Shown here: positions 6,691-45,432 of the stretch, in pieces
How the letters are laid out: each line of letters opens with the position of its first letter
How positions within the stretch are numbered: the first letter of the stretch is position 1
Assembly: GCA_036898135.1 (NCBI GenBank)
Contig: CM072515.1
Location: 54,196,736-54,260,735, forward strand
Source: Oncomelania hupensis
Taxonomy: Eukaryota > Mollusca > Gastropoda > Littorinimorpha > Pomatiopsidae
Length of the DNA: 64,000 nt
Reading direction: 5' to 3'
Notes under the pieces: model-generated
Databases searched by the model: none
What the model saw: the letters and a program-made list of their open reading frames with translations, nothing else
What the model was told of the DNA's origin: nothing
Program-made: the position numbers and the translations under genes

Positions 6691-6897
6691 TGTGTTTTTT
6701 TCTCTCCCTTGTCATGGCTGGACATCAACATCTACCCCAATGTTCATATAGCAAGTGCCGGTAAACCTGGTAGTGAATGCACTGAATCGTATATTTCCAT
6801 CGACACTATCACTGCCCACCACAACAAAATGTCTCACGCCTACGAAAATGGTTGACATAGGGCTGTTCATGTACAACTCAAATGAAATGCTCGCATC

Positions 6898-7587
6898 CTA
6901 ATGAACCACGATGCTGTCAAAGTCATCATTGTTGGTGGAGTGTCGGCTTTGAGGGTTCACCCATCCACCGAGGCGAGGACTGTTTTCGGGAGCCACGGCA
7001 GCAGTTCTTCTGGACCCGGCATGCTTGGGCGTCGACGTTGTCAAACCGTCGTCGTCTTCGTCGTTGAAAACTCCTTCGCGTTGTTTTGCGCTGACGTTGC
7101 CATTTTGAGCATTGACGTCACCGTTTTTAGCGGCAGCGGCGTCAACGCCGTGAAGAACCTCCACTTGGTCGTAAGTCACCATGTTGTTGCTACCAGTGTT
7201 TGGGCTTGGCGGCGTTTCAGAGCTTTGGCCATATTGCATGTAGACTGCAGAGGAGGGGTCACTGTTGTTGACTGGACACACTTTGGACTGGTCACTGAGG
7301 GGCACCGGGCACACTTTTGGATGACCCTCGCTGGATACATCGTGGGGCGCTGGGCATTTTTTGGGCTGGTCATTCGCGTCATCACCTCCAGCCGGACATA
7401 TCTTGGGCTGAGTTTGACCGTTTGCTGCATAACCTGCGTACAGCCCATCGCTAGACATGGGAATTTCGGTGTAGTCTTCATTGATAACAGCCATTCTCTC
7501 AGCCTTGGCCTCCTGGTATCCATTCTGCAGCTTGAGGATGATGAACTTCACTACAGCCTCCCATGCGCGGTACAGCTCTCCTTTAAA
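6898..7587 (-). CDS. Globin exon 4: H helix and C-terminal tail with four Cys-Pro repeats
   Basis: The acceptor gtgtgcag| ends at 7588. FKGELYRAWEAVVKFIILK completes the G/H helices. The tail of about 200 residues has four tandem-like units around KICPA, KKCPA, KVCPV and KVCPV (Cys 270, 284, 299, 310; spacings 14, 15, 11). Each has Lys one or two residues before the Cys and Pro right after it. Such Cys-Pro pairs resemble heme regulatory motifs, a functional idea that is inference here. The rest is rich in Asn, Asp, Ser and Pro and looks disordered, with an acidic NDEDDDG patch and a DSIVVH end. An open frame on the opposite strand (6901-7608) is a by-product of codon bias. Confidence 0.8.
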   Translation of the reverse strand, partial: FKGELYRAWEAVVKFIILKLQNGYQEAKAERMAVINEDYTEIPMSSDGLYAGYAANGQTQPKICPAGGDDANDQPKKCPAPHDVSSEGHPKVCPVPLSDQSKVCPVNNSDPSSAVYMQYGQSSETPPSPNTGSNNMVTYDQVEVLHGVDAAAAKNGDVNAQNGNVSAKQREGVFNDEDDDGLTTSTPKHAGSRRTAAVAPENSPRLGGWVNPQSRHSTNNDDFDSIVVH

Positions 7588-7642
7588 CTGCACACAAACG
7601 TGAAATAATTATTAGCTATGAAGCGCATGTACACAAACATGT

Positions 7643-7697
<55 letters not shown>

Positions 7698-7698
7698 C

Positions 7699-7763
<65 letters not shown>

Positions 7764-10479
7764 CGATGACGATGAAGATGAAGATCATGATAACCATCAC
7801 GGCGATAATAATGATTGTGACGTCGTCGTAAAACTCCGTATCCACTTCAGCAGACATGCTCAAAGCGCACGCAGGGGAAAAAATAATCCTCAAAGATTCT
7901 GACTGCATGAAAATGAAAACTCAAGTAATTTCCGGGCATGCGCAGTCGTGTCTTTTTTCAGTTTTTGTACACTAAGCTAATCTATAATTGTATATGATGA
8001 AGCTGATACAATGCTGGGTTTAAACGAAATATAGTAGAAATTCTTTTCTTTTTTTATGTAAATGAAAACGCAGATTTTTTATTTATTTATTAAATCAAGC
8101 TAAACAAATGATGTTACCAAAGGAAATCACAACATGTACGTTCATAAATAACGTGGACTACACTTGCATTCATAGAGAAGTATAACTACAACATTCAGAC
8201 CTCCAGTTTTGATTGATTGATTGATTGTTGCTTTAAGTCCAGCGGACTCTTCCGAGCCAAATCAGGACCGGACAACCCCCTATCCGCATAAAAGATCTGC
8301 CGAAACAACCCTAGTGGGAAACTTGAATGCCCTCCACCGGCCAGTCACTTTACAATAAAGACATCCCACGCAGGGGACGGCTGAGGCTTTACCCCAACTA
8401 CTCGAACCCCCGGTTACAAAAACAAAATAGAATACAAACATCATTATAAATCATCAACAAAACACATATATATAAAATGCCTATAGTGCTAAATAATAAC
8501 ATCATAGGAAGCCCTAGTGACCACCCGGCAGAAAGCGTCCAACACTCCCAAGCTGATCCAACAGACCTCATACACAAACAAGGAGTCTTGTCCAGGAAGA
8601 GTTTTCAAGAAAAAAGGTAGGTCATTGATCTAGCGAAGAAGAAGATAGTATAGCAGAGTGATAGGACAGATCAGGAATGGGAAAGAGCAAATGAGGAAGA
8701 CAGCGACAGTGGGAATTTAAAGCACTAAATTTCCAGAAAGTGGGGATACTATTTATACTGAAACCCCGGCACTCCAACGGGGGTACTGTTGCCGCAGTGA
8801 ATCAGTCATGCCTACAAAGGCAAGACAGGTTTTCAACTGGGGCTTTCACTTTTCCCTAAATAGGTTAGACCAATCTACTGTGGCAAGATTGCTCATGACC
8901 CCAAGGGGTTGACCTCCAGTTATTAACTTATGAATATAGTTAGGCGGACTATGGGCATACTGTAATAGATATAATATGATAATACAGTACTAGTGGTATG
9001 TTTTGGTACCAAGTTTAGGTCATAATCATCAGCGCTGTGGTCCCTATAATATTATCATGTCAACATTGCTTTGCGGGAGAAAAAATGTCGTCGTCATCAT
9101 AATCATTAGCATCAGCAGCAGCATCTTTATTATCATCAACGCTACCTCCAACCAGTAAGCTTACAATTACCATCATCGTCATGACATGTACTTCTTTCTT
9201 GTTCGACTTCTGGCTTTTTAATTTTCATCATCGTTATCATCATCATCATCACCATCGTTATCGTCGTCGTTGTCGTCGTCGTCATCCGCCTCTTTCTCAT
9301 ACCACCACCAACATCATCATCATCAACGTCGTCGTCGTCACCATCCAACTCACCTCTTTCTTGCCGAACTCTTGCCCCATACAGTGCAGGAGGGCGATCT
9401 TGAAGATGCCGAAGTTGCCTCGCTGGAACCCCCTGACCTCCAGATGCTGAGCGCCGACCCTAGTGAACAGGGCGTTAGCTTTGTTGTCGCCGTTCTGGAT
9501 GGACTCGATGGCGCACGACACCATCGCCATGAAACGCGCAGAGTGCATGCGAAACTCCTCGTTCGTCTCCAGCTTATCTTCTGGCTGTAAATAAGATTGT
9601 ATTACCTCGAATCACGAAAGAAATGACAAAATGAACGAATCAATCAATGAATGGCAACTTCTTCAGCGCATACCATCTTCCACACTCAAAGGCGTGCTCA
9701 AATGACCACGTGACAAGGTAAAACAGCTAGGAATGCATTTAACATTCTAACAGTAGCGTTGTGTGGTTGTCTCGGCCGCTCGTATCTGGATGTGAGAGCA
9801 GTCTCTCTATTATACTAATATAATTATAGAGACCGATGCTATTACTTAACGCTTCGCATCTGTCACATTCACATACGCTTTTTTACATACACAACGAACA
9901 CGCATTCATCATTCAAACATGTGGTGTATTGGGAAAAAAAAGTTATTAGAAGACGGAAAAGAATTAAAATTTATTATTTTGAAACGTTACATTGACTGCC
10001 TCCAGTACCATTATTGAAGGTAGGGAGGAAGGAAACCGAAGCACCTGGAGACAACCCTCGGTTACTTGAACAGTCTCATGCCCAAGTCACACCACCCGCG
10101 ACACAGGCGCATGATATAGGAAACCAGTGTCTAAGCAACTGCGATTACCAGGGCTACCTCGAACATTATCTGACTTTTCTCTCACCTCATCCTTGAAGCC
10201 GAAGAATTCCTTCAGGTCAGGCCTCATGTGGAAGATGGTTTTGAACACACGCATACCCATTTCCTGGAGCTTGGGCCTCAGACGGTGCAGACTGCTGGCC
10301 ACCAAGTCCTTCTGCTCCTCTGTCAGGAAATATGGCTCTTCCGACCAACTTTCCGTCTGTAAAGGACAAGATTAATGAAATGTAAGATCGCATAGAGGGA
10401 ACGATAAAATATTGAACCGTATAACAGGATAAAGGTTTTAGGCGCGAAAGCCTATTCTTCCAACCTGTTGTAATAAACA

Positions 10480-10562
<83 letters not shown>

Positions 10563-10822
10563 ACAATTGCCTATTTAACATTAACAAGTAACAATAGGCA
10601 AAAAAAATCAAATACAATCAAAATAAATACAATGACGCAGCATCAATTCCAATCTTCTATCTAGACGTAAGCTTACTCTTATAGGAATCATGTAAAATAT
10701 TTTAAAAGGTTTCTTTTAAATGATGAGATAGTAGTTCCGTATGGTTTACACTCCAAAGGAAGGGAGTTCCATACAGATGGACCATAAAAGAAATACCTTG
10801 TTTATGTTGATCGCTTGTGGAG

Positions 10823-10900
<78 letters not shown>

Positions 10901-10919
10901 GAGAGAGAAAGAAAGAGAA

Positions 10920-10991
<72 letters not shown>

Positions 10992-11848
10992 AGGAAATCA
11001 AAGAGATTCAGATTCAGATTCAAATATTTTATTACGAGAAGAAAATGGTTTTAGCATTAATTTGCTAATCTTACAACCAGTCCTTCTTTCAGTCGCTCAC
11101 ACATTTAGTTTAATCATTCATCCGCATTCATGCATAGACGAACATAGAAATAACATTACTTTTTTTTTAAATCTCTCTTTAATAACTAATTGTGTAACAA
11201 GGAAACTAACAATAATTAATAGGAAACCTTTAACTGGAACCATTTAATTTAATAAAGAGAGAGATGTTTGAGGGATTTAAGGGGGTAGAATAGGGCGTGG
11301 GGACAGGTGATGAAAGATGAAAATCAATTGAGGCTGTATGTTTTTCGAAATTATTAAGAAGTAATTGTAAATCTTGTCCTTGAAGGTGTTTAATGATGTG
11401 CATTATAGCTGGTTTGAAGAGCTCATTGTAGGAGACAAGTCATCTGAATGAAAAGCATTTTCTTGTCGAGAGACATTGGAATATTTCATGTTTCTAGCTA
11501 AGGGTACGTTCATGCTAAACCCGGCAATTTGACGTCGGCTGCCGCCGGCAACTGGTTGGAATCTGTGGTAATGCCCTTTTCTTCTTTCCCACCATGAAAG
11601 CCGGCGATGCACGTTCAAGCTGCCAGCCGGTTGCCGTCGGCTGCCGTCAGCCAGCAAAATGCTTTGTCGCTTGTCACAAAAAAAACGGCTGGCTGGTCGA
11701 AGGGAAAGAATTGTTCACCATACCGACAGAGTGAATGCACTTGATTCGCGGCAAAATGTGTGCGTGTGTGTGTGTGTATGTTCATGCATGTGTTGGATTG
11801 ACATATAACCCTTCTCTCTCTCTCTTTCTTTCACACCCCTTCCTCCCT

Positions 11849-11912
<64 letters not shown>

Positions 11913-12534
11913 TTGCAATGTTCCCAGATCTAACCAGTTTTAGATCTTGTCTGAGTCTAAACAGTTTTAGATCTAGTCAGTCTAAGCAGTTTTAGATGAT
12001 TATGTCTTTCTCGCATTCATGTAACAGCTAAATACTTTACCTCAGTGTTACAATCAAGCGCTCCGCTGGCGAAATAGGCATTTGAAAAATTGTAGACTGT
12101 TTTGTCAAATCTTCACGGCATTGGCTAAGCAGATCTTGAAAAGTCTCTGTTCGCATCCTTATGTATTTTACACATTTCTGGGTATCGTTCATCACTTGCG
12201 GAATCAAATGACGATATTATCCATGCACTCTACGATTGCGGTGATTTGGGTGCACATTATATTTGCGAGAATTCCGTTTTAATAATCGATACATCACAGG
12301 AGTATGCGCCTCTTCCGCCTGGAAAGCGCGATCTTTGTATACAAAGTAGTGTGGCAGCAATTAGCGGGACAGCAACTTCGGGCTCTACCGTGAACACTGG
12401 TGACGGCAATTTGCACACGGCAACTGGCTGACGGCAACTTGCCGGGCTTAGCATGAACGTAGCCTAAGGCGAGTGCTCCTTTGAAACTTGGATGAAACGT
12501 CTTGATAAAGTGCTTGACGAGGGTGGCTGAGAGC

Positions 12535-12610
<76 letters not shown>

Positions 12611-14365
12611 TAGAGAGAGAGAAAGAGAGAAAAAGATAGGTGGTGGTGTGGTGAACGGTCTTTTTTCAAAGCCAGCTTCATGATGAGAGCTTTGCCCGAC
12701 TCCTCTCACTAGTTGGGCTGCCTTTTTAGTGCTAAAGAGATCCGGTGTAACAGGCCGGAATATACCCCTGGCTACTTTATACCCTGGGTATAATGTAGCC
12801 TAGGTGGGTTTAACCCCCTGGGTATAGATCAGCCTAGGCCAGGTCATAACCCTCGCGCCCAGAATATACCCCCACCTAAAGAGATTTCACTCATGGGTTT
12901 GTTGTACATGACCGTTTGCGTGACCAACTCTCAGGTAACAGCCTTTTGCTTGCGTGTAAAAAAAAAAAAAACAAAAAAAAAAACTGAGTGAACTCAGCTA
13001 ACAGCCTTTATCTTGCGTGTAAAAAAAACAAACTAAAAAAAACTTTTAAAAAACTAACCCTAACTATCTATCTATCTATCTATCTATCTATCTGAGTGCA
13101 TCAGAACAATTACAACACATAAATTAAAGAGTAACGTGAAGGATAATATCTTCCGTAGTGGTGGGGGGGGGGGGGGGGGTATCACACTTTTCTGCTATCC
13201 TATGCACCAACGGGAATCCCCTCAATGAAACATACTTCCGGTTTCTTTCTCCGCGTGTTTTAGTGAGTTATTTCCAAATATTCAAGAATAATAACATGTG
13301 TCACTGGCTACCAGTATCGTACCCTCACATATTTTTTTTTTTTGGCTGCAGTTTATTATCCCTTTCTATCGCCAGTGGCGCGCCTAAACCCTACCTACAT
13401 TATTTGTGAATTTTTGAAAAATATTCGGAAAAACATAACGCCCAGATGCTGGCTCGAACCCACACCTGTCAGGCGCCATTGGTTTCTGGCTTGTGGACAA
13501 GGCAAGTTAGTCCCGCCTTAGCCCACTTGGCCACAACGCTCGCCTAACATAGTCAACTACTTTGTGTTTTGTGAAGGTTGCGACGGCGAAGCTATGGAAA
13601 ACTACAAGAGTCTTCAGGTCCTGTTTCACTTTCTGTCGATGATCGACGCACCTCCGAAGTCGCCACAAATACAGGCCTCTACGATTGTTTTTTGCATCCT
13701 TTCACTGAGCATGTACTTCCTCCACCGTTTTTATACTTATCCCACTCGTTTTCTGGCTCTAACAATCGTCGTTTTCGGCAATTTGCCATATTTAAAAGTC
13801 ACGCATCAAGCTTTGATAAAAGCAAAACGAGCCAGACCGGAACTTGGTTTCATTCTAACCTCGTTTTAATTTATAATGGCGATACCCACGAGTTTTTATG
13901 AGAGGTGCCGGAAAGTTGTGATATTGAGGCGGGGTATAATCTGGCCTGCTACACCGGGGTTACCAACTCACAGCTTTTTGGAGAAAGGTACAGGTCATAG
14001 CATAGTTAAGACCTTATGAATGTTAGTCTGGAGTTTGACCCTGACTTCAACTCATTATTCTGTGAAAGCTGCACCTCGGACACCAGCGCTAAGAGCGGTC
14101 CTTTAAGCTGAGAAGCGCGCTAAACAACAACGATCCTGAGTTCCCTAACCTTATGTAAACTGGTGTGGCTAGGCTTTCTCTGCTTCTCTTTCTCCTTCTT
14201 TGGCGTGGCCTTGCCCTTGACGCCGCCATTGCCTTTAACGTCCTTGATCATCAGCTTTTGTATTTCGGCCTTGAACTTGCTCTTGTCCCGCTCGATTTCT
14301 TTCTCAAGTTCACAGCTTACGTTTGCGTTGGACCCGACTTTTGTTGATGATGGTGTGCAACCCAT
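6898..14365 (-). CDS. N-acylated globin gene, four coding exons (14365-14150, 10356-10186, 9584-9354, 7587-6898)
   Basis: This is a heme-binding globin, probably membrane-attached. Four minus-strand exons join in phase 0 to about 435 residues. Exon 1 (1-72) begins MGCTPSS, a myristoylation plus palmitoylation type start, followed by a charged stretch and a lysine-rich linker. Exon 2 (73-129) covers the A to C helices and CD corner, with Pro118 (C2) and Phe124 (CD1). Exon 3 (130-206) holds the E to early G helices, with His143 as the likely distal E7 and His176 as the likely proximal F8. Exon 4 (207-435) finishes the G and H helices, then adds a long hydrophilic tail ending in a TAG at 6900-6898. 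Acylated N termini are known in globin X-like proteins of animals. Assignment to that group is inference. The ATG is preceded directly by an AG acceptor-like site, so an upstream non-coding exon is likely. Confidence 0.85.
7642..7775 (+). repeat. (GAT)n microsatellite in globin intron 3
   Basis: About 43 GAT units with a few GAC changes, some 55 bp upstream (in gene sense) of exon 4. Related (CAT)/(CGT)-rich text is at 9205-9345, directly behind the donor of exon 3. Confidence 0.95.
8209..8910 (-). mobile_element. 590-700 bp retroposon family, longest copy
   Basis: It is flanked by gacctccagtt at 8198-8208 and 8911-8921. In sense (minus) orientation it ends ...tccgctggacttaaagcaac followed by an (AATC)n tail. 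It contains the TATA-like cagtataaatagtatcc that all copies share, and here about 125 bp more upstream of it. No long ORF. The variable-length target duplication and simple tail point to LINE-driven retroposition. Confidence 0.7.
9354..9584 (-). CDS. Globin exon 3: heme pocket, E to G helices
   Basis: The exon has 77 codons, acceptor ttatttacag| at 9585 and donor GAG|GTGAGT at 9354/9353. It contains EEFRMHSARFMAMV (helix E with distal His), TRVGAQHLEVRGF (helix F with proximal His) and GIFKIALLHCMGQEFGKKE (helix G). The spacing of the two histidines is 33 residues, longer than the 29 of myoglobin and close to that of neuroglobin-type proteins. The following intron lies at the classical G7.0 position in phase 0. 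Confidence 0.87.
10186..10356 (-). CDS. Globin exon 2: A to CD region
   Basis: The exon has 57 codons, acceptor ctttacag| at 10357 and donor GAG|GTGAGA at 10186/10185. It starts TESWSEEPYF, then LTEEQKDLV begins helix A. The segment FKTIFHMRPDLKEFFGF is the B-C helix and CD corner with the near-invariant Pro (C2) and Phe (CD1). The intron at its end is in phase 0 between CD and E, not at the common animal globin position B12.2. Confidence 0.85.
10481..10560 (+). repeat. (TTA)n microsatellite
   Basis: About 26 units in globin intron 1. Confidence 0.95.
10822..10992 (+). repeat. (GA)n microsatellite
   Basis: About 170 bp in globin intron 1 with GAAA interruptions. Confidence 0.95.
11502..12464. 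mobile_element. Harbinger-like non-autonomous DNA element in globin intron 1
   Basis: The element runs from GGGTACGTTCATGC to GCATGAACGTAGCC, imperfect terminal inverted repeats of at least 25 bp. It is flanked by TAA at 11499-11501 and 12465-12467, matching the 3 bp TWA duplication of PIF/Harbinger elements. Subterminal sequence on both sides is rich in repeated GGCAACTGG/GGCTGCCG motifs. No transposase frame is present. It contains (TG)n and (CT)n arrays (11758-11910). Confidence 0.65.
12534..12635 (+). repeat. (GA)n to (GACA)n compound array
   Basis: GA units pass into about eleven GACA units (12567-12610) and back to GA. Confidence 0.95.
12742..12875. mobile_element. 134 bp insertion flanked by a 10 bp duplication
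   Basis: The insert begins ccggtgtaacaggccggaat and ends agaatatacccccac. The flanks carry ctaaagagat at 12732-12741 and 12876-12885, a clean target duplication. Inside are repeated, partly palindromic blocks such as ccctgggtata and agcctagg. A related end in inverted orientation is seen at about 13930-13965 (gtataatctggcctgctaca). Confidence 0.55.
13430..13545 (-). repeat. tRNA-like SINE head (Leu/Ser-like)
   Basis: On the minus strand, gtggccaagtgggctaagg is an A-box-like segment and gtgtgggttcgagcc a B-box-like segment, about 75 bases apart. The stem sequences do not pair well enough for me to call a functional tRNA. A SINE head or tRNA pseudogene is more likely. Confidence 0.4.
14150..14365 (-). 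CDS. Globin exon 1: MGC acylation signal and polybasic linker
   Basis: The exon encodes 72 residues. Gly2-Cys3 after the start Met fits N-myristoylation with adjacent palmitoylation. Residues around 20-45 are heptad-like and charged (ELEKEIERDKSKF). Residues around 50-66 are lysine-rich (KGKATPKKEKEKQRK), a polybasic patch that usually strengthens membrane attachment. The donor is AAG|GTTAGG at 14150/14149. The bases just before the ATG read ttaacag, a plausible acceptor, so the translation start probably sits at the very beginning of exon 2 of the transcript. An upstream (TTTA)n array replaces a good pyrimidine tract. Confidence 0.75.
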
Positions 14366-29556: not shown

Positions 29557-30761
29557 CAGCGTTTCCCATTACGCACATATGTGCGTAATTCACGCATAAA
29601 AATCGGAAGATGACGCAAAGATTTTGATTAAGAGGGTCCCACGGACGCACACGTTGTTGCGCCCAGCGAAAGTGTCGTACCCAGAGCTGCCAACCACTAC
29701 GGAATTTCCGTAGTTTACTCCGGAAATGAATACGCGGCTACGGAGCTACGCAAATCGAAAATTTACTACGGAAAGTCAATTTTCGACGATAGTATTACAG
29801 TTTTAACGAGTTTTATTGAGCGCCTGTGCCTCCCGTAGCACCTCAAGGTCACGGTCATTCGGTTTACGTGCACGGAGTAATAGATCACGCTCCCAGTGCA
29901 TGTTAGGAAATTCGACCAATCACCGTGAAGTGGTTTTGCAAACGGCCAATCGCTGCACAAAACCTCGACCTTTCTGTGACACTTTCGTTTCCGGGTCACT
30001 TTCTACACTGCGAGAAGAAAAGTTTGTGTGCGGCTTATTTTGAATCCGTGATGCCAAAAAGAAAGAAAACTAGCGATGAAAGCCCAGAAAAAAAGAAGAG
30101 GACAGCAAATCAAGAGTACAGGAAAGAGTATTCTGAAAAATTTCCGTGCATCACTGCGTCATCGAGATCAAAACACAGCGTGTATTGTACAGCGTGCTTG
30201 GCAGATTTTAGCATACAACATGGCGGCTTCCACGATGTGACGCGACACGTGAATGGCAATCGTCACAAAAGTCGTTGCCCTGATCCAGAAAAGTTAGTCC
30301 CTGTTCAGTCGGTAGCCACCTTCTTCCAGCCCGATATGGATCTCTCAATAATTCGTGCGGAAACACTCTTCACGACCTTCGTTGCAGAGCACAATTTGCC
30401 TGCGTCGGTAGCAGATCACTTCAGTAAGTTAGTGAAGGCAATGTTCCCGGACTCCCAAGTTGCCAAGAGCTTTGCATGTGAAAGTGCAAGGCTGCCACCA
30501 GATTGGGCCTTGCTAAAGACTAGACATGTTCCCAGAGAGAGAATAGAGCAAGTTCAGTAAATGTGGAGTATTGTATGAAGTGTGTCATCTTTCCTTGCAA
30601 CTGTGCTTGTTTAGTAGTGTGTGTGTATATGCATGTCTTCGTTAAAAAAAAAAAAAAAAAGCGAGGACGTATGGCTACTGAAAATGTCATAAAACTACTG
30701 AAATTCAGAATTTTTGCTACTGAAAACTTTTTTGGGGTTGGCAGCTCTGCGTACCCCACGT

Positions 30762-32255: not shown

Positions 32256-32345
32256 ACGTCAAGTGAATCGGTTAAGAGGGGAATTAAATTTACGTTACCA
32301 TGACCCAAATTTTGCTCCCAAATGTTTTAACTTCTTCTCCATGAA
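31190..32345. other. AT- and CT-rich DNA, no gene
   Basis: Pyrimidine-rich text at 31430-31640 and AT-rich text at 31740-32200. Nothing conserved is recognised. Confidence 0.4.
31658..31739 (+). repeat. (GA)n microsatellite
   Basis: About 80 bp. A shorter (TG)n/(GA)n pair is at 31093-31160. Confidence 0.95.
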
Positions 32346-32362
32346 CACTCTCTCTCTCTCTC

Positions 32363-32447
<85 letters not shown>
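32346..32447 (+). repeat. (CT)n array, left flank of the nested LINE
   Basis: It is the left part of a microsatellite split by the LINE. A smaller CT array lies at 32210-32255. Confidence 0.95.
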
Positions 32448-32449
<2 letters not shown>

Positions 32450-32570
32450 GGGGCGCTGTTTGGCGCGCTTTTCAGTCAGGTGTGCTTTCTTGAGCTCTGA
32501 CATTTTTATCGCAAGATTCACTCAAAAGTTGGTCGGTGGATGGATACTGTGCCTCAATTACTTGCGTACC

Positions 32571-33575
32571 ATGCCTGCAGAATCATTGTCTTTTAGGGCC
32601 AAGTGTGGTTCATTCGTTGGAATTTTCCTCTATTTCATGTGGCGAAGAGGCAAGTCTATTTTTAGACCACGAGGGCTTCGGATACATTCGTACTCAGCCG
32701 GTTTGGTGGTAGGCTTGCTGTTTGCGCAGTTTACGTTTTGCAACTTGTTGTTACGCAGCGGAGATGTGGAGAGTAACCCTGGCCCTGGCCCTACTGGTCA
32801 CTCCAAGCAGGACACATCCATGAGGCAGACGCGATTGACCAGCACGGGTGGGGAGGGGACGAGTACCAGGAGAGACAGTGTTACCGCTGACGCTGGTGGA
32901 GACTCGATGCTGCGAGATATACTCAACAAACTGTCAGGTGTGGATACCAAACTGACGACCTTGGACTCGAACATCGACAAACGACTTGAAGGGTTGCGAG
33001 AAGAGATGAGAAGTACCTTTTCTACTGTCACCGCTGAGGTAAATGAGCTGAGAGAGGAGGTGGTGAGGTTGAGAGAAGAAAATAATGATTTGAGAATGCA
33101 GATGGACAAATTTGAGGTTAAGCTTGATGACCAAGAGTGTCGATCTAGACGTAATAACGTTCTTTTTTACGGATTGGCCAGACAGGATCCGATCGACAAA
33201 GATGAGGACTGTGAGCTTACTGTGAAAGAGTTTCTAACAGATAAATTAGACATGTCGGTGGATAACTTCGATCGGGTACACCGTACTAGTGACAAACCCA
33301 ATGCACCGATAATAGCAAGATGTACTTTTTACAAGGATAAGTTGGCGATTATGAAGGCCAAAAGCAAACTGAGAAACTCAAACATCAATGTGTTTATTGG
33401 TGAAGATTTTTCAGTGCGTGTTCGTGACGTTCGTAAGAGGCTGTCTACACACATGAAAGAAGCCAAGAAGGCTGGGAAAAGGGCTTTTTTAGTGTATGAT
33501 CACCTGGTGATTGATGGCAAAAAATTTGTTCTGTCAAATGATGATATTGTTGAGGAGGGAAGGAAAGGTAAATAA
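32571..33575 (+). CDS. LINE ORF1: 2A-like leader, coiled coil, L1-type RNA-binding protein
   Basis: The frame has 334 codons from ATG 32571; the frame is also open upstream without an ATG. Residues 1-71 form a leader with two hydrophobic stretches (about 14-23 and 44-60) ending in RSGDVESNPG|P, a canonical 2A ribosome-skipping signature (DxExNPGP), with the break expected after Gly71. Then comes a Ser/Thr-rich linker, a coiled coil (about 115-190, ending LREENNDLRMQMDKFE), an RRM-like part beginning RSRRNNVLFYGL, and a C-terminal basic domain (EDFSVRVRDVRKRL). This order matches L1-type ORF1 nucleic-acid chaperones. 2A motifs in animal non-LTR elements have been reported. No stop or frameshift is visible. 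Confidence 0.85.
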   Translation: MPAESLSFRAKCGSFVGIFLYFMWRRGKSIFRPRGLRIHSYSAGLVVGLLFAQFTFCNLLLRSGDVESNPGPGPTGHSKQDTSMRQTRLTSTGGEGTSTRRDSVTADAGGDSMLRDILNKLSGVDTKLTTLDSNIDKRLEGLREEMRSTFSTVTAEVNELREEVVRLREENNDLRMQMDKFEVKLDDQECRSRRNNVLFYGLARQDPIDKDEDCELTVKEFLTDKLDMSVDNFDRVHRTSDKPNAPIIARCTFYKDKLAIMKAKSKLRNSNINVFIGEDFSVRVRDVRKRLSTHMKEAKKAGKRAFLVYDHLVIDGKKFVLSNDDIVEEGRKGK

Positions 33576-35847: not shown

Positions 35848-37287
35848 CAGTGTTTCCCACAAGCTTCAAATCAAGGGGTCCAAGGGACCCTCTGTTGAAA
35901 ATTTTGAGGGTCCTTTTAAAAATTCTGAGGGTCCCTTCCATGTGTGCATACAAATGTGACTAAAGTCAATAAGATAAAGTGTAGTGCTTATACAATGTCT
36001 TATAGTGCAATATCAGCTGACCAGTCAATAAACAGCACAAGAACTCTATGCCGGTGTGTGTGTGAGCGACGTCCACTGTGATAACGTGGGGGTACGCAGA
36101 GCTGCCAACCCCCCAAAAAGTTTTCAGTAGCAAAAATTCTGAATTTCAGTAGTTTTATGACATTTTCAGTAGCCATACGTCCTCGCTTTTTTTTTTTTTT
36201 TTAACGAAGACATGCATATACACACACACTACTAAACAAGCACAGTTGCAAGGAAAGATGACACACTTCATACAATACTCCACATTTACTGAACTTGCTC
36301 TATTCTCTCTCTGGGAACATGTCTAGTCTTTAGCAAGGCCCAATCTGGTGGCAGCCTTGCACTTTCACATGCAAAGCTCTTGGCAACTTGGGAGTCCGGG
36401 AACATTGCCTTCACTAACTTACTGAAGTGATCTGCTATCTGCAGGCAAATTGTGCTCTGCAACGAAGGTCGTGAAGAGTGTTTCCGCACGAATTATTGAG
36501 AGATCCATATCGGGCTGGAAGAAGGTGGCTACCGACTGAACAGGGACTAACTTTTCTGGATCAGGGCAACGACTTTTGTGACGATTGCCATTCACGTGTC
36601 GCGTCACATCGTGGAAGCCGCCATGTTGTATGCTAAAACCTGCCAAGCACGCTGTACAATACACGCTGTGTTTTGATCTCGATGACGCAGTGATGCACGG
36701 AATTTTTTCAGAATACTCTTTCCTGTACTCTTGATTTGCTGTCCTCTTCTTTTTTTCTGGGCTTTCATCGCTAGTTTTCTTTCTTTTTGGCATCACGGAT
36801 TCAAAATAAGCCGCACACAAACTTTTCTTCTCGCAGTGTAGAAAGTGACCCGGAAATGAAAGTGTCACAGAAAGGTCGAGGTTTTGTGCAGCGATTGGCC
36901 GTTTGCAAAACCACTTCACGGTGATTGGTCGAATTTCCTAACATGCACTGGGAGCGTGATCTATTACTCCGTGCACGTAAACCGAATGACCGTGACCTTG
37001 AGGTGCTACGGGAGGCACAGGCGCTCAATAAAACTCGTTAAAACTGTAATACTATCGTCGAAAATTGACTTTCCGTAGTAAATTTTCGATTTGCGTAGCT
37101 CCGTAGCCGCGTATTCATTTCCGGAGTAAACTACGGAAATTCCGTAGTGGTTGGCAGCTCTGGGTACGACACTTTCGCTGGGCGCAACAACGTGTGCGTC
37201 CGTGGGACCCTCTTAATCAAAATCTTTGCGTCATCTTCCGATTTTTATGCGTGAATTACGCACATATGTGCGTAATGGGAAACGCTG
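35848..37287 (-). mobile_element. hAT-type truncated element, copy 2 (inside LINE ORF2)
   Basis: The 1440 bp element has ends CAGTGTTTCCCA and TGGGAAACGCTG, an imperfect inverted repeat of the CAGNG type usual for hAT. The flanks carry tgtatg at 35842-35847 and 37288-37293; hAT normally gives 8 bp, so the duplication is shortened or eroded. It is a near-identical inverted copy of 29557-31030, without the long (CA)n array. Removing it rejoins LINE ORF2 as VVWDKIDTQHMP. Confidence 0.8.
36419..36793 (-). pseudogene. BED-finger/hAT N-terminal protein, copy 2, frameshifted
   Basis: It is the same protein as at 30051-30560 from MPKRKKTSDES through the BED-type finger to AEHNLPA. A 2 bp difference there (cctgcagatagcag against cctgcgtcggtagcag in copy 1) shifts the frame and ends it early at DSRSLQ. 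The remainder (ADHFSKLVKAMFPDS) is still readable in another frame at 36286-36440. Confidence 0.75.
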
Positions 37288-37991
37288 TGTATGGGATAAA
37301 ATTGATACACAACATATGCCTGTTGTTCTTTCTATAAAATTCCCTTGTGAAAATGTTGATACTAAGATTAATGATGAGGAAACATATGTTGATAAATATG
37401 TATGGGACCCTGACCTTTCTGATGTCTTTAGAAACAATATTTGCTCTCAACACGCTCGTTTTAAGTTAGAAGAAGCTATTCATTTTATTGATGTGGATGT
37501 TGATCATGCCTTGTGTTTGTTTAATGCATGTTTAAAAGACTCCGCAGACTGTATGAAAAGACGGGTTCGTCTTCACAATAGGAAGATTGCATATGACTGG
37601 TTTGATGCAGAGTGCAAGAAAGGTAGAAAGCAGACTCGGAAACTGCTAAAAAAGTACAAGCGCACTTTGCTCAATACTGATCGGTTTGAATTTTGTAAGG
37701 CTAGGAGAGAATATAAACATTTGATTGTTGTCAAGAAAAAACTTTACAAGGCTAAGATGATTGAATATTTAGTTTCTTCTGTTAACGATCAAAAAACCTT
37801 CTGGCAAACTGTGCGCAAAACTATTCCAAAGCGGAAGTTTGTGAAAAATCAAATAACATGTGACCAATGGTTTGCACACTTTCAGCAACTACTTGAACAA
37901 GATATTGACAATTATGAAAATGTCGACACTGCGGATGATGAAGGTGAAAACTTTGATGATCTGGATTTTAATCGCCCAATATCAAGCGCAG
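37288..37991 (+). pseudogene. LINE ORF2 segment 2: end of endonuclease and linker
   Basis: It resumes immediately after the hAT element with DKIDTQHMPVVLSIKF, where His-Met-Pro corresponds to the catalytic His of APE endonucleases. The preceding Asp of the usual SDH triplet reads Gln. The rest (RRVRLHNRKIAYDWFDAEC and following) is the lysine-rich linker before RT. It ends in FNRPISSA, where the RTE copy at 37992 interrupts it. Confidence 0.8.
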
Positions 37992-40067
37992 TATATTTGC
38001 ACCACTGCTTATTTTGGGGGCAGGCGAAGTAGATGTCAACACCATGACCAATACCTTCAACTCAGCTGTAACAGATGCCGCCACTGAGATCCTTGGCAAG
38101 CACCGACCAAAGAAGAAGCCGTGGATCACACCTGAACTTTTGGATCTGTGTGATAAACGAAGAGAGTTAAAAAAGAAAAAGAACACCTCACATGGAGCTG
38201 ATGTCTACCGAAAAATCAACAATGACATCCGAAAAGGCATGCGCACAGCAAAGGAGAACTGGATAGAAGATCAATGCCAGGAAATAGAGAACAATCTGAA
38301 CAAGAACAACAGCAAGAAGGCCTACCAGACTGTGAAGCGGCTGACAAGTGTTAAACAGCCCAAAGTCTCCACTATCCAAAGCAAGTCTGGCATTTGCCTT
38401 ACAGAAGAACAAGAAGTCTTGGACAGATGGACAGAGTACTGCTCTGACCTTTACAACCATGCACCAAATGGAGACCCATCAGTTCTAGCATGTCCCGAGA
38501 GCAGAGAAGAAGAAGAAATCCTCCCAATTCTCCGGGAAGAAGTTGAGGCAGCAGTGCAATCGCTGAAGAAAGGGAAGTCAGCGGGAGTGGACAACATACC
38601 AGCGGAACTGCTACAAGCAGGAGGAGAAGCGATGACTGATGCTCTCACCATTATCTGTAACAAGATCTGGCAGAGTGGAGAATGGCCTACACCATGGACC
38701 CAGTCGCTTGTCATCACTCTTCCCAAAAAAGGTAACCTTCAGGAGTGTGAAAATTACCGCACCATCAGCCTCATCAGCCATCCCAGCAAGGTCCTCCTGA
38801 AAATAATACTCAACAGGTTGAAACCACAAGCTGAACAAATCATAGCTGAAGAACAAGCAGGATTCATGGCAGGGCGAAGTACCACTGAACAGATTTTCAA
38901 CCTCAGAATAATCTGTGAGAAATACCTACAGCACCAACAACATCTATATCATGTGTTCATAGACTTCAAGAAGGCATTTGACCGAGTCTGGCATGCAGCT
39001 CTATGGGCAACCATGAAAGTGTACAACATCAGCCCTAAAATTATAGAAGTCATCAAAAGCCTGTATGACAAGGCTACCAGTGCAGTCCTCCATAACAGCG
39101 TCATCGGGAACTGGTTCAGAACAACAATCGGTGTGCGTCAAGGATGCCTACTCTCTCCAACACTCTTCAACATCTTCCTAGAGCGCATCATATCAGATGC
39201 TCTTGCAGATCACGAAGGCACAGTCAGCATAGGGGGCAGAGCAATCTCCAATCTTCGTTTTGCGGATGATATTGATGGATTGGCTGGAGAGGAACAAGAA
39301 CTTGAACAGCTTGTACAGAGGCTTGACACCACCTCCAGAGCTTATGGAATGGAAAAAAGTGCAGAGAAGACCAAAATGATGACCAACAACACCAATGGCA
39401 TCAACACGGACATCAAAGCACAAGGCCAATCCCTCAACACAGTGCACAGCTTCAAATATTTAGGAGCCATTGTGTCAGACAATGGGTCTCGACAGGAAGT
39501 CCTCTCCAGGATCGCACAAACAACTGCTGCCCTGACAAGGTTGAAGCCCATTTGGAAAGACAGAACCATCAGTCTACATTCCAAAGTAAGACTGCTGCGC
39601 TCTCTGGTCATCTCCATCTTCCTATATGCTTGCGAAGCATGGACCCTCACAGCAGATCTCCAACGAAGAATACAAAGCATGGAGATGAGGTGCTACAGAA
39701 GACTTCTGTGCATTTCCTATACCCAACACATCACCAACGACGAAGTCCGACAGACCATCACACAAGCCATTGGACAACACGATGACCTGCTCACAATGGT
39801 GAAGAAACGGAAACTCCGATGGTATGGCCACGTCACCAGATCATCAGGCCTTGCAAAGACCATTCTGCAAGGCACAGTGCAAGGAGGTAGAAGAAGGGGG
39901 AGACCGAAAAAGAGGTGGGAGGACAACATTCGAGAATGGACTGGTTTGACACTGAGCGAAGCCATGAGGGCTGCTGAGGACAGAGAAAGATGGAGTATGC
40001 TGGTTAAACGATCATCTGTGGTGCCCCTACGACCTTCGGGTTATGGGACAGGATAGGATAGGATAGG
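37992..40067 (+). mobile_element. RTE-type LINE copy A, 5'-truncated, inside LINE ORF2
   Basis: It is flanked by atcaagcgcag at 37981-37991 and 40068-40078 (11 bp). It begins at a point inside the endonuclease-RT linker of copy B (atttgcaccactgc) and ends in the tandem tail ggataggataggat. Removing insert plus one duplication restores the host frame FNRPISSAEVLLALRKL, which proves a recent insertion into once-coding DNA. Confidence 0.92.
38014..40056 (+). pseudogene. RTE reverse transcriptase, copy A, lacking the endonuclease
   Basis: About 680 codons are open without interruption. Visible are KKPWITPELLDLCDKRREL, SAGVDNIPAELLQAG, NYRTISLISHPSK, EQAGFMAGRSTTEQIFNL, FIDFKKAFDRVWH (motif A Asp), RQGCLLSPTLFNIFLE (motif B), LRFADDIDGLAG (motif C, both Asp intact), FKYLGAIVSDNG and the C-terminal RWYGHVTRSSGLAKTIL with a basic GRRRGRPKKRWED. 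The endonuclease is missing through 5' truncation, so it is a dead copy despite an intact RT. Similar C-terminal sequence is typical of RTE-group endonuclease-reverse transcriptases. Confidence 0.88.
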
Positions 40068-40078
40068 ATCAAGCGCAG

Positions 40079-40564
40079 AAGTTTTATTAGCCCTTCGCAA
40101 ATTAAAACCAAATAAAGCAGCAGGGCCAGATGGAATAATAGGAGAAATTTTAAAATACTCCTCAGATGTCATTGTTATATTTTTAGTTACATTTCTTAAT
40201 GGCTTATTTACCAAGGGTATTTACCCTGAAAGTTGGTGTGAATCAATTATTCTTCCGCTGTATAAGAAAGCTGGTGTAAATAATCCTAGTAATTATAGAG
40301 GGATAAGTCTTTGCAATCTTGGTAGTAAAGTTTATGGAATTATTATTAATAAGCGATTGCAAGCATGGGTGGAAGAGAATAATAGTACTGGGGAATGTCA
40401 GGCGGGAACTTAAAGCCGGTTACTCAACAATTGATCATTTATTTACTTTGATGGCCTGTGTTCAAAAACAATTCCTTAAAAATAGAAAATTATATGTTGC
40501 TTTTATTGAATTTGAAAAATGTTTTGATAGTATTAATAGACATTTACTCTGGTCAATACTTCTC
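40079..40564 (+). pseudogene. LINE ORF2 segment 3: reverse transcriptase fingers
   Basis: Directly after the target duplication the frame reads EVLLALRKLKPNKAAGPDGI, then NNPSNYRGISLCNLGSK, KAGYSTIDHLFTL and AFIEFEKCFDSINR, which are RT motifs 1 to A with the catalytic Asp of motif A. A frameshift lies near 40410 (ECQAGT then stop in frame; the next frame continues KAGYST). The segment ends HLLWSILL at the RTE insertion at 40565. Confidence 0.8.
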
Positions 40565-43500
40565 TGTGGGTTCGGGCAAATAGAATAGACCCAACGTTTC
40601 CCGGCGTGTCGTAAGAGGCGACTAACAGGGGTGATGTTAGCACGGCATCACTGGGCGAAAGTCTTCTACACAGAAGTCACCGGCCAGGGCGGAGGAACCT
40701 CACGTTACTACAGGTTCAACGACCACGTGCTCAGGGCCAAGGCGAGCCACACTGTATTCGTGGATTTCGGCTGTGGCCAACAGCCTGGAGAGGATTGGGC
40801 CCTGCCAGGTCTTTTTTGCCCAAGACACACTACATGATGACACAATCCACTAATTCCATACCGGATCGGTCGTCGCCCGGGCCGTCACCCGGCACAAGGA
40901 CCGCGCCTTCCGTTGGCCACCAGGACGGAGGTGTTAAGTATGCTACTGATGGACAATATAGCAAGATCCGCACGAGAAACAACATCGTCATAGGAACCTG
41001 GAACGTCAGGACCCTAACTGCGGAAGGAAAATTAGAAGAACTGGCCCACGAGCTGGACCACTATCGATGGAACGTTCTAGGTATCAGCGAACTGCGCTGG
41101 AAAGGCCTAGGTGAAACAACGACTGACAAAGGCCACAAGCTCTATTTCAGCGGTAGAGATGACAGGCACGAACACGGCGTTGGATTCTTGGTCCACAAGA
41201 ACATTCTAGCCACTGTCATGGGTTGCCGCCCAGTCTCCAGTAGACTCATTACCATCCGTCTGAGAGCAACCCCTTTCAACATTACCATCATCCAGGCCTA
41301 TGCCCCAACATCAGACTATGAAGACAGCGAAGTGGAGGATTTTTATGAAAATATACAGGCGGTCCTTGACCAAGTGCCGAAGAAGGACATAGTCATAGTG
41401 CAAGGCGACTGGAATGCCAAGGTTGGCCAAGATGCGCACCGCAACTGGGGAGACACATGCGGACCCCACTGCAACAACGAGACAAATGACAGGGGTCTGA
41501 GGCTATTGGAGTTTGCCAGATACAACAATCTGGTACTGGCAAACACGCTTGGTCTCCACAAAAAATCCAGACGATGGACATGGCACAGTCCCGGCGGGGA
41601 ACATCACAACCAGATCGACTACATCATGGTCAAGAAACGCTTCAGATCAAGCATCAACATTGGCAGGACACGCACTTTTCCAGGAGCAGACATTGGAAGT
41701 GACCACGATCTCGTGATGATGTCTTTCCGGCTCCATTTGAAGAGAGTAAATACAGCAAAGTGCACTAGGCTGAAGTTCGACCTGGACAAACTGCAAGACC
41801 CGGAGGTGGCAAAAATATTTCAGGCCACAATTGGAGGGAAATTTGCACCACTGCTTATTTTGGGGGCAGGCGAAGTAGATGTCAACACCATGACCAATAC
41901 CTTCAACTCAGCTGTAACAGATGCCGCCACTGAGATCCTTGGCAAGCACCGACCAAAGAAGAAGCCGTGGATCACACCTGAACTTTTGGATCTGTGTGAT
42001 AAACGAAGAGAGTTAAAAAAGAAAAAGAACACCTCACAGGGAGCTGATGTCTACCGAAAAATCAACAATGACATCCGAAAAGGCATGCGCACAGCAAAGG
42101 AGAACTGGATAGAAGATCAATGCCAGGAAATAGAGAACAATCTGAACAAGAACAACAGCAAGAAGGCCTACCAGACTGTGAAGCGGCTGACAAGTGTTAA
42201 ACAGCCCAAAGTCTCCACTATCCAAAGCAAGTCTGGCATTTGCCTTACAGAAGAACAAGAAGTCTTGGACAGATGGACAGAGTACTGCTCTGACCTTTAC
42301 AACCATACACCAAATGGAGACCCATCAGTTCTAGCATGTCCCGAGAGCAGAGAAGAAGAAGAAATCCTCCCAATTCTCCGGGAAGAAGTTGAGGCAGCAG
42401 TGCAATCGCTGAAGAAAGGGAAGTCAGCGGGAGTGGACAACATACCAGCGGAACTGCTACAAGCAGGAGGAGAAGCGATGACTGATGCTCTCACCACTAT
42501 CTGTAACAAGATCTGGCAGAATGGGGAATGGCCTACACCATGGACCCAGTCGCTTGTCATCACTCTTCCTAAAAAAGGTAACCTTCAGGAGTGTGAAAAT
42601 TACCGCACCATCAGCCTCATCAGCCATCCCAGCAAGGTCCTCCTGAAAATAATACTCAACAGGTTGAAACCACAAGCTGAACAAATCATAGCTGAAGAAC
42701 AAGCAGGATTCATGGCAGGGCGAAGTACCACTGAACAGATTTTCAACCTCAGAATAATCTGTGAGAAATACCTACAGCACCAACAACATCTATATCATGT
42801 GTTCATAGACTTCAAGAAGGCATTTGACCGAGTCTGGCATGCAGCTCTATGGGCAACCATGAAAGTGTACAACATCAGCCCTAAAATCATAGAAGTCATC
42901 AAAAGCCTGTATGACAAGGCTACCAGTGCAGTCCTCCATAACAGCGTCATCGGGAACTGGTTCAGAACAACAATCGGTGTGCGTCAAGGATGCCTACTCT
43001 CTCCAACACTCTTCAACATCTTCCTAGAGCGCATCATGTCAGATGCTCTTGCAGATCACGAAGGCACAGTCAGCATAGGGGGCAGAGCAATCTCCAATCT
43101 TCGTTTTGCGATGATATTGATGGATTGGCTGGAGAGGAACAAGAACTTGAACAGCTTGTACAGAGGCTTGACACCACCTCCAGAGCTTATGGAATGGAAA
43201 TAAGTGCAGAGAAGACCAAAATGATGACCAACAACACCAATGGCATCAACACGGACATCAAAGTACAAGGCCAATCCCTCAACACAGTGCACAGCTTCAA
43301 ATATTTAGGAGCCATTGTGTCAGACAATGGGTCTCGACAGGAAGTCCTCTCCAGGATCGCACAAACAACTGCTGCCCTGACAAGGTTGAAGCCCATTTGG
43401 AAAGACAGAACCATCAGTCTACATTCCAAAGTAAGACTGCTGCGATCTCTGGTCATCTCCATCTTCCTATATGCTTGCGAAGCATGGACCCTCACAGCAG

Positions 43501-43907
43501 ATCTCCAACGAAGAATACAAAGCATGGAGATGAGGTGCTACAGAAGACTTCTGTGCATTTCCTATACCCAACACATCACCAACGTTGAAGTCCGACAGAC
43601 CATCACACAAGCCATTGGACAACACGATGACCTGCTCACAGTGGTGAAGAAACGGAAACTCCGATGGTATGGCCACGTCACCAGATCATCAGGCCTTGCA
43701 AAGACCATTCTGCAAGGCACAGTGCAAGGAGGTAGAAGAAGGGGGAGACCGAAAAAGAGGTGGGAGGACAACATTCGAGAATGGACTGGTTTGACACTGA
43801 GCGAAGCCATGAGGGCTGCTGAGGACAGAGAAAGATGGAGTATGCTGGTTAAGCGATCATCTGTGGTGCCCCTACGACCTTCGGGTTATGGGACAGGATA
43901 GGATAGG
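40565..43907 (+). mobile_element. RTE-type LINE copy B, full length, inside LINE ORF2
   Basis: It is flanked by aatacttctc at 40555-40564 and 43908-43917 (10 bp). The 3343 bp include a GC-rich 5' region (from tgtgggttcgggcaaa, with cgtgtcgtaagaggcgac), one long ORF and the ggacaggataggatagga tail. Removing it rejoins the host frame HLLWSILLKHGIKGK. It differs from copy A at only scattered bases over their shared 2 kb. Confidence 0.92.
40834..43901 (+). pseudogene. RTE endonuclease-reverse transcriptase, copy B, single frameshift at the catalytic motif
   Basis: From ATG 40834 the endonuclease is complete: IGTWNVRTL, GISELRWKG, HGVGFLVHK, IQAYAPTSD, VQGDWNAKVG, QIDYIMVKK and GSDHDLVMM, carrying the catalytic Glu, Asp-Asn and Asp-His. 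The linker and RT follow as in copy A up to LRFA. One G is missing at about 43109 (ttttgcgatgat against ttttgcggatgat in copy A), so the motif C Asp pair is lost and the frame ends at 43203. The correct frame continues DDIDGLAGEE from about 43110 to 43901. Confidence 0.9.
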
Positions 43908-45432
43908 AATACTTCTCAAGCATGGTATTAAAGGGAAACTGTACTCCTGTATTAAGAGCATGTACTCAAATGTTAAAGCACGTGTTCGATGTGGTACTAA
44001 TCTCACACAGTCGATTATTTGTAGTTCTGGTGTGAAGCAAGGAGATATATGTAGTCCTGTCTTGTTCAGTTTGTTTATTAATGAGTTAGCATTAGATGTT
44101 ATTAGAAATGGGAGACATGGAGTAACTTTTTTAATGGACACATTTGAATTATTTATCCTTTTATTAGCAGATGATATTGTTCTTGTATCAGAAACGAGTG
44201 TTGGTTTACAAAATCAGTTAAATTCACTGCACAGTGCTGCTTCAAATTTATGTTTAAAAGTCAACATGGACAAAAGCAATATTGTAGTTTTCAGAAAAGG
44301 AGATTATCTTGGAAGGCGAGAAATATGTTTTTTTGGTGGTGAGGTAATGCCCGTTTTGACAGCCTACAAATACCTGGGCATATATTTTTCTACCAAACTA
44401 AGTTTTGTTGCCGCGTGTCGTGATTTATCCAGTCGGGCAAAAAGAGCACTTCTTTGTATTTTGCAAAAGCTTCGAATGTTTAATAATTATTCACTGGATG
44501 TTTTTTTTTTTAAATTGTTCTGTTCTCTGTTCTGGATTAAATTTACGTCCCCAACACCAAAGCATATAGGGGACGAGTTTAAATTGTTTGACGCTCAAGT
44601 TCAATCTATTTTAAAATATGGATCCGAAATTTGGGGCTTAGAAAATGCTGCGCATCATTGTGAGAAGATTCATTTGTTTGCAATGAAGAAATTATTATGT
44701 GTTAATATGCGGACCCCAAATGACCTCGTATATAAAGAGTTAAACAGATTTCCTTTATTAATTAATTTCTCAATGAATACGATTCGTTACTGGTTGAAGT
44801 TATGTAAAATGCCTACTGATAGAATCCCGAGAAAAGCTTATTTTGTGTTGCTGTATTTAGACAATAGAGGGAAGACAACTTGGGCATCGAAAGTAAGACA
44901 GTGTTTAAATGTACATGGTTTTGGTAATGTTTGGCTAGCACAGGGTGTAGGAAATGAGAGAGAGTTTTTAAGAATGTTTAAGCAGCGCATGGTGGATTGC
45001 AGATGGCAAAATTGGAGTGAACATGTGAGCGAAAGCGAAAGATTCCATATGTATAGATTATTTTGCAGCCAATTAAATGTTGTTCCTCAATATTTGAGTA
45101 TGCCTCTTGACAGTCATCTGAACTTCATTATGACAAAATTCCGATTTGGTGTTTCAGATTTGTTGGTCCATTTTTATCGATATCGGCAATGTAAGTCAGA
45201 TGATCTAATTTGTCCGCTATGTAAAAACGGTGTGTAGAATGACATTCATTTCTTACTTTTTTGTCCTTTTCTAATAAATCTCAGAAAGAAGCTAATACCT
45301 ATAAAATTCCATAGAAATCCAAGTTTATGCCGTTTTCAGTTGCTAATGTCATCAAAACAACCTCATATTGTTAAAAATGTATGTGTTTACTTGTATCATG
45401 CTTTTAAAATTCGGGAAATTGCGTTATCCTGA
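43908..45432 (+). pseudogene. LINE ORF2 segment 4: reverse transcriptase palm to C terminus
   Basis: After the second RTE copy the frame continues ILLKHGIKGKLYSCIKSM, SSGVKQGDICSPVLFSLFIN (motif B), LLLADDIVLVSE (motif C, catalytic Asp-Asp intact) and AYKYLGIYFS. It then runs through the thumb and C-terminal domain. A TAG at 45235 falls inside a C2HC finger (CPLCKNGV, stop, NDIHFLLFCP). The frame then reads on to a stop at 45430. The 3' UTR contains taatggggctttggcc before the tail. Confidence 0.8.

Follow-up and report, generated by a model that had tools for sequence, protein, structure and literature searches.

Acylated globins are widespread in animals, and what they do is called an open question in the part of the literature that treats them (PMC7771090, cited in part). 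A stretch of the Oncomelania hupensis genome raises this question again: its minus strand carries a gene whose predicted product joins an N-terminal acylation signal and a globin domain to a 200-residue tail with four Cys-Pro units. Is the gene real, how does its protein compare with known acylated globins, and what might the tail be for? The stretch analysed, called the window here, comprises 64,000 nucleotides (C5:54196736-54260735) of a 1.45-Gb genome in 428 contigs. Our overall reading, to which we give a probability of about 0.6, is that the gene would encode a functional, single-copy, membrane-held globin with a Phe-lined bis-His pocket and a selected Cys-Pro thiol tail. The confidences that we attach to this reading and to its rivals are not mutually exclusive.

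The gene is real at the level of sequence. Four exons separated by three phase-0 GT-AG introns join in frame to a protein of 435 residues (Table 1), and some 580 bases beyond the stop there is an AATAAA that resembles a polyadenylation signal. Pfam Globin covers residues 109-222 with 58.5 bits against a cut-off of 22 (E 1.1e-15), and this match, together with HisF8 (His176) and PheCD1 (Phe124), places the product in the globin superfamily. A preliminary description of this DNA had proposed four in-frame exons encoding a globin with a Met-Gly-Cys (MGC) start, a polybasic linker, a His143/His176 heme pocket and a 200-residue tail carrying four Cys-Pro units. The exon structure is confirmed by the joined protein and its Pfam match, and the remaining elements were all recovered, as set out below.

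The protein begins with MGCTPSS, which matches the PROSITE myristoylation pattern. The MGC start and the polybasic stretch are both present, and the Gly2/Cys3 signal supports the proposed reading of the protein as an acylation-type globin. In zebrafish globin X, double acylation at Gly2 and Cys3 places the protein at the membrane, as shown with G2A and C3S mutants (PMC3176823). Acylation is also predicted for animal globin clades II, III and IV and for the spiralian-only Sp-globins (PMC7771090), as well as for many arthropod globins (PMC7457136), according to the passages of these papers cited here.

The positions of the heme pocket were obtained from an alignment to human cytoglobin, using the helix names of its residues. 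His143 and His176 align with E7 and F8 of cytoglobin, and phenylalanines occupy B10, CD1 and E11. Among solved structures, those closest in sequence are cytoglobin and the non-symbiotic haemoglobins of plants (E ~1e-8), which are hexacoordinate; the iron of the window protein is probably also six-coordinate, through HisE7 and HisF8. The same distal cage of PheB10, PheCD1 and PheE11 is described for haemoglobin I of Lucina pectinata, whose E7 residue is Gln, whereas the window gene has HisE7 (PMC2657002, cited in part). The two also differ in length, the Lucina protein having 142 residues and the window gene product 435.

In the tail (residues 236-435), the net charge is -13 and Ser, Ala, Val, Asp, Pro, Asn and Gly are abundant. 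All four cysteines of the last 200 residues (C270, C284, C299 and C310) precede a proline, within cores of the form P/S-K-x-C-P-A/V that are spaced by 14, 15 and 11 residues. Four CP pairs were reached in 9 of 200,000 residue shuffles of the tail, a count that cannot be read as the chance of the units arising independently, because they are probably duplicates of one another. Tandem Repeats Finder reported no array across the units, its sole exon match lying elsewhere (7092-7131). Over the six codons of the cores, the pairwise mismatch at the first, second and third codon positions was 0.19, 0.19 and 0.64, a contrast that is partly built in, as the core columns were chosen around the motif and the sample is four short units; the corresponding values were 0.33, 0.37 and 0.60 over ten codons and 0.42, 0.48 and 0.56 over sixteen. 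The pattern looks like that of old duplicates in which the residues were maintained while changes built up at silent sites and in the linkers. Since there is no tandem array in the DNA and the cores differ mainly at third positions, the protein motif looks selected, and to this extent the codon pattern bears out the idea of a Cys-Pro tail on an acylation-type globin. Of 20,000 base shuffles, 5 left the tail frame open, and the tail is single-copy in its own genome, the next match having an E value of 0.18. An ITIM-like (immunoreceptor tyrosine-based inhibitory motif-like) Tyr motif, VTYDQV at residues 343-348, was dropped as a candidate because such a match occurs in 10% of shuffled tails.

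Relatives within the genome bear on whether this architecture stands alone. A Pfam Globin search gave at least 16 matches, one of them exon 3 of the window gene, and 25 candidates were scored. A search with residues 1-239 recovered the window gene in four pieces and also hit two other loci, one on C3 (E 6.9e-4) and one on C5 (E 1.4e-3). The relative on C5, L010 (36-1381, equal to C5:38216036-38217381), lies 16 Mb from the window gene on the same contig. Its gene model has two coding exons and 299 residues, with an MGC motif and a Pfam Globin score of 75.3 bits. The globin parts of the two proteins are 23% identical, and L010 keeps PheB10, PheCD1, HisE7, PheE11 and HisF8. PheE11 occurs in four of the genome's 16 globin rows (the window gene, L010, L023 and L024), and PheB10 together with PheE11 in the window gene and L010 only (B10 visible in 9 of 16, the other seven with ValE11). 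Like the window gene, L010 is without B12.2 and G7.0 introns; its single coding intron falls in the CD region, and since it is offset by about 7 nt from the window gene's intron position and differs in phase, the two may not be the same intron. The last exon of L010 also ends in a long tail, of 128 residues, with 22 His, which makes it a candidate metal- or heme-binding tail. Because L010 has the pocket and the MGC motif in common with the window gene, and its last exon likewise encodes a long tail, the architecture is no accident of one gene. For the other nearest relative, L020, no exons beyond the central one were found in the 10 kb examined, and a tree built from the genome's 16 globin rows gives the window gene no supported place.

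Several observations weigh against our overall reading. A codon-usage model, for which the remainder of the gene served as training set, showed no preference for the sense frame of the tail, scoring it at -0.256 bits per codon, against -0.162 for the in-register antisense frame and -0.205 for the sense frame shifted by one, which contains three stops; the codon-aligned antisense frame of the tail is open too. By its charge-hydropathy value, the tail falls only a little way into the disordered range (0.408, with the boundary calculated at 0.437). In L010, the tail contains no Cys-Pro pair, and an ATG directly 5' of the MGC ATG makes the start ambiguous; a Met-Met-Gly-Cys start, if used, would be expected to block myristoylation.

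To place the gene among known globins, we compared its structure with that of globin X. On helix numbering that we take from myoglobin, intron positions B12.2, G7.0, E10.2 and H10.0 would map near residues 112, 189, 146 and 217, each within an exon; the introns of the window gene follow residues 72, 129 and 206. Position C4, counted from CD1 with helix numbering assumed likewise, is Leu120, and the globin part holds two cysteines only (Cys153 and Cys197). B12.2 and G7.0 are the classical globin introns, E10.2 is an intron of globin X, and H10.0 is found in fish and amphibians (passages of PMC3206486 and PMC7457136). Because all four positions are exonic, the structure of the gene departs from what is typical of globin X and globin X-like genes. 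Fish globin X also has a CysC4-CysG14 disulfide, as described for zebrafish (PMC3176823), whereas C4 in the window protein is leucine. Known globin X proteins, in the parts of the literature cited, have about 200 residues (arthropod mean 228), compared with 435 here. What the window protein has in common with globin X (clade III) and globin X-like proteins (clade II) is an N-terminal extension with the Gly2/Cys3 signal of a globin predicted or shown to be at the membrane (PMC3176823, PMC7771090, PMC7457136, each in part). The earlier label of a globin X-type protein therefore holds as a likeness, but the introns of globin X are missing, and so is one cysteine of its disulfide.

Nematode globins offer a second comparison. 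C. elegans GLB-26 likewise has a myristoylation signal and is a bis-His globin, as the window protein probably is (PMC3520999, PMC2867796), and a redox role has been proposed for the myristoylated protein (PMC3520999). It differs in having Ile at CD1 (PMC2867796), where the window gene has Phe, and the portions of its published description cited here mention no Cys-Pro tail such as the window protein carries. Unusual introns and N- or C-terminal extensions are frequent among worm globins (PMC2867796, in part). Acylated globins are already known, as are globins with extensions or with non-classical introns. A globin with both a Cys-Pro tail and an acylation signal was not met in the literature searched, which covers few subscription papers; as far as that literature shows, the combination is new, for which this is weak evidence.

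Sequence searches add little on this point. In a protein collection apparently without animal globins, no homologue was found for the whole protein among 5410 word-sharing candidates (E 0.001), for the globin part among 11 candidates (E 0.01) or for the tail among 939 candidates (E 0.01). As the globin part drew only 11 candidates, the collection seems to be without animal globins of such a kind, and absence from it says little on novelty. No family of NCBIfam was matched, 82 stretches of viral_contigs fitted a pattern with no relative among them, and tail residues 240-435 had no match among PDB sequences up to E 10.

Taken together, our overall reading suggests the following mechanism. The globin would be held at the inner face of the membrane by the Gly2 myristate, the Cys3 palmitate and the basic stretch. 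Heme would probably be bound by HisE7 and HisF8 in the pocket lined by three phenylalanines, a pocket that would suit redox chemistry or small ligands (NO, H2O2, sulfide) and not oxygen transport. The long acidic tail encoded by the last exon may be a lineage-specific, largely disordered extension, in which selection, as the codon pattern indirectly suggests, would keep four Cys-Pro units that present four thiols near the membrane heme. These thiols would most likely form a redox- or ligand-responsive contact site that reports on, or is coupled to, the chemistry of the heme. This chemistry, with redox partners or small ligands, would take place at the inner face of the membrane, as has been proposed for GLB-26 and globin X.

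The strongest rival, quite plausible if somewhat short of even odds, is that the role of the Cys-Pro units is unrelated to heme and that they are plain thiol sites or peptides for docking (for S-palmitoylation, disulfide formation, metal binding or as a linear motif that a partner recognises). That the conserved core extends beyond Cys-Pro to P/S-K-x-C-P-A/V argues for this, as do Tyr motifs of the tail such as that at residues 343-348, though with the frequency among shuffles given above; the spacings of 14, 15 and 11 residues, however, are unlike those of a usual zinc site. We consider it unlikely that the tail is a functionless, neutral low-complexity growth of the last exon in a repeat-rich genome. 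The quite different composition of the L010 tail and the crowding of the gene's introns with microsatellites are consistent with such growth, but the Cys-Pro cores retain their residues although their third codon positions differ.

A further possibility, which we rate as slimmer again, is that the Cys-Pro units are heme regulatory motifs that bind labile heme as a five-coordinate thiolate, serving in heme sensing or in transfer to and from the globin pocket at the membrane. It is a specific form of our overall reading and compatible with it. CP pairs also occur in proteins without heme regulation, which counts against this possibility, and the L010 tail differs; that tail is nevertheless rich in His (22 of 128 residues), which is also a heme ligand. 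The nonapeptides around the four Cys-Pro pairs have net charges of +1, +2, +1 and +1 within the tail of -13, and an aliphatic residue is found among the four residues before Cys in three of four units. No unit has an aromatic residue among the four after Cys, the residue following the Cys-Pro pair being A or V. In published peptide work, heme affinity is higher where the net charge is positive, and a negative charge appears inhibitory (PMC6356037), and known Cys-Pro proteins have aliphatic residues before Cys in ~87% and an aromatic residue near Pro in 40% (PMC10377097), each source being cited in part. The heme-motif likeness put forward earlier is hence borne out by charge (4/4) and largely by the aliphatic residues (3/4), but not by aromatic ones (0/4), and the units make fair, not classic, candidates for heme regulatory motifs. 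With ALAS and Bach2, two heme regulatory motif proteins, they share Cys-Pro units and positive nonapeptides, and perhaps a flexible setting (PMC6356037, PMC10377097, in part); they differ in having no aromatic residue after Pro and in being attached to a heme protein.

In the genomic DNA, an acceptor-like TTATTTATGTTAACAG terminates immediately before the ATG of exon 1, so an exon may lie upstream (5') of the ATG exon, although an in-frame TAA stands just 5' of the ATG. Exon 4 contains two donor-like sites, at residues 309 and 343, whose score of 7 equals that of two of the three donors in the gene model. The adjoining acceptor-like AG and these donor-like sites would favor a model that is partly wrong, in which the ATG exon is not the first coding exon of a longer protein or splicing inside exon 4 removes the Cys-Pro tail from the main transcript. 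We think this improbable, because L010 likewise has an acceptor-like AG shortly 5' of its MGC codons, which fits an intron within the 5' untranslated region of both genes. The codon pattern of the cores at third positions moreover suggests translation of residues 267-312, and Gly2/Cys3 at a globin start is a known feature.

Table 1. Features of the globin gene, in window coordinates
Feature	Position	Strand	Remarks
Exon 1	14150..14365	-	MGC start, N-terminal extension of 72 aa; donor AAG/GTTAGG; acceptor-like AG abuts ATG
Met-Gly-Cys	14357..14365	-	candidate N-myristoylation (Gly2) and palmitoylation (Cys3); from sequence
Polybasic stretch	14150..14245	-	residues 41-72, net charge +8
Exon 2	10186..10356	-	residues 73-129, helix A to CD start; unbroken across B12
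PheB10 (Phe110)	10243..10245	-	cytoglobin alignment
PheCD1 (Phe124)	10201..10203	-	cytoglobin alignment
Exon 3	9354..9584	-	residues 130-206, CD to G end; unbroken across E10 and G7
HisE7 (His143)	9543..9545	-	possible distal heme ligand; cytoglobin alignment
PheE11 (Phe147)	9531..9533	-	cytoglobin alignment and comparison of the genome's globin rows
HisF8 (His176)	9444..9446	-	proximal heme ligand; cytoglobin alignment
Exon 4	6898..7587	-	residues 207-435 and stop; helix H, then 200-residue tail
Cys-Pro unit 1, KICPA (Cys270)	7390..7404	-	
Cys-Pro unit 2, KKCPA (Cys284)	7348..7362	-	
Cys-Pro unit 3, KVCPV (Cys299)	7303..7317	-	
Cys-Pro unit 4, KVCPV (Cys310)	7270..7284	-	

Other features were seen in the window and among the genome's globins. 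A 240-codon open frame on the plus strand (6886-7605) lies antisense to exon 4 and is codon-aligned with it. A long open reading frame (ORF) at 32331-33572 (+) contains a 2A-like peptide, DVESNPGP, at 32763 and has a Pfam match below the cut-off only; it is perhaps ORF1 of a non-LTR (long terminal repeat) element. It is flanked by two ORFs, at 29907-30557 (+) and 36422-36937 (-), that are near-identical by eye, opposite in orientation and about 6 kb apart. Pieces of non-LTR retrotransposons, possibly inserted in one another, occupy 37972-45234 (+), with an endonuclease and reverse transcriptase at 40615-43200 and a reverse transcriptase at 43813-45234; by eye, 37972-40053 resembles these pieces. 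Over the whole window, there was no Rfam match at gathering score and no tRNA. Elsewhere on C5 (30.73-30.78 Mb), L011, L012, L023 and L024 are four neighbouring globin genes, each with its globin domain in one open frame; L012 contains the motif MGCCGGKPQ and a long run of Pro residues, and L024 has Phe at E7 as well as at E11.

The broadest view of these data, and the one to which we give the least credence, is that a few globins of this lineage form a membrane-anchored group in which a bis-His heme inside a Phe cage is combined with a long tail rich in ligands for heme or metal (Cys-Pro in the window gene, His in its paralogue). These two-module proteins would sense labile heme, sulfide or oxidants or pass them on, with the tail as a second heme site next to the globin pocket. 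If the tail does bind heme, the protein would be a globin with two kinds of heme site, of which none was met in the literature searched. A Cys-Pro tail and the His-rich tail of a paralogue on a matching Phe cage would give a direct handle on the function of acylated globins.

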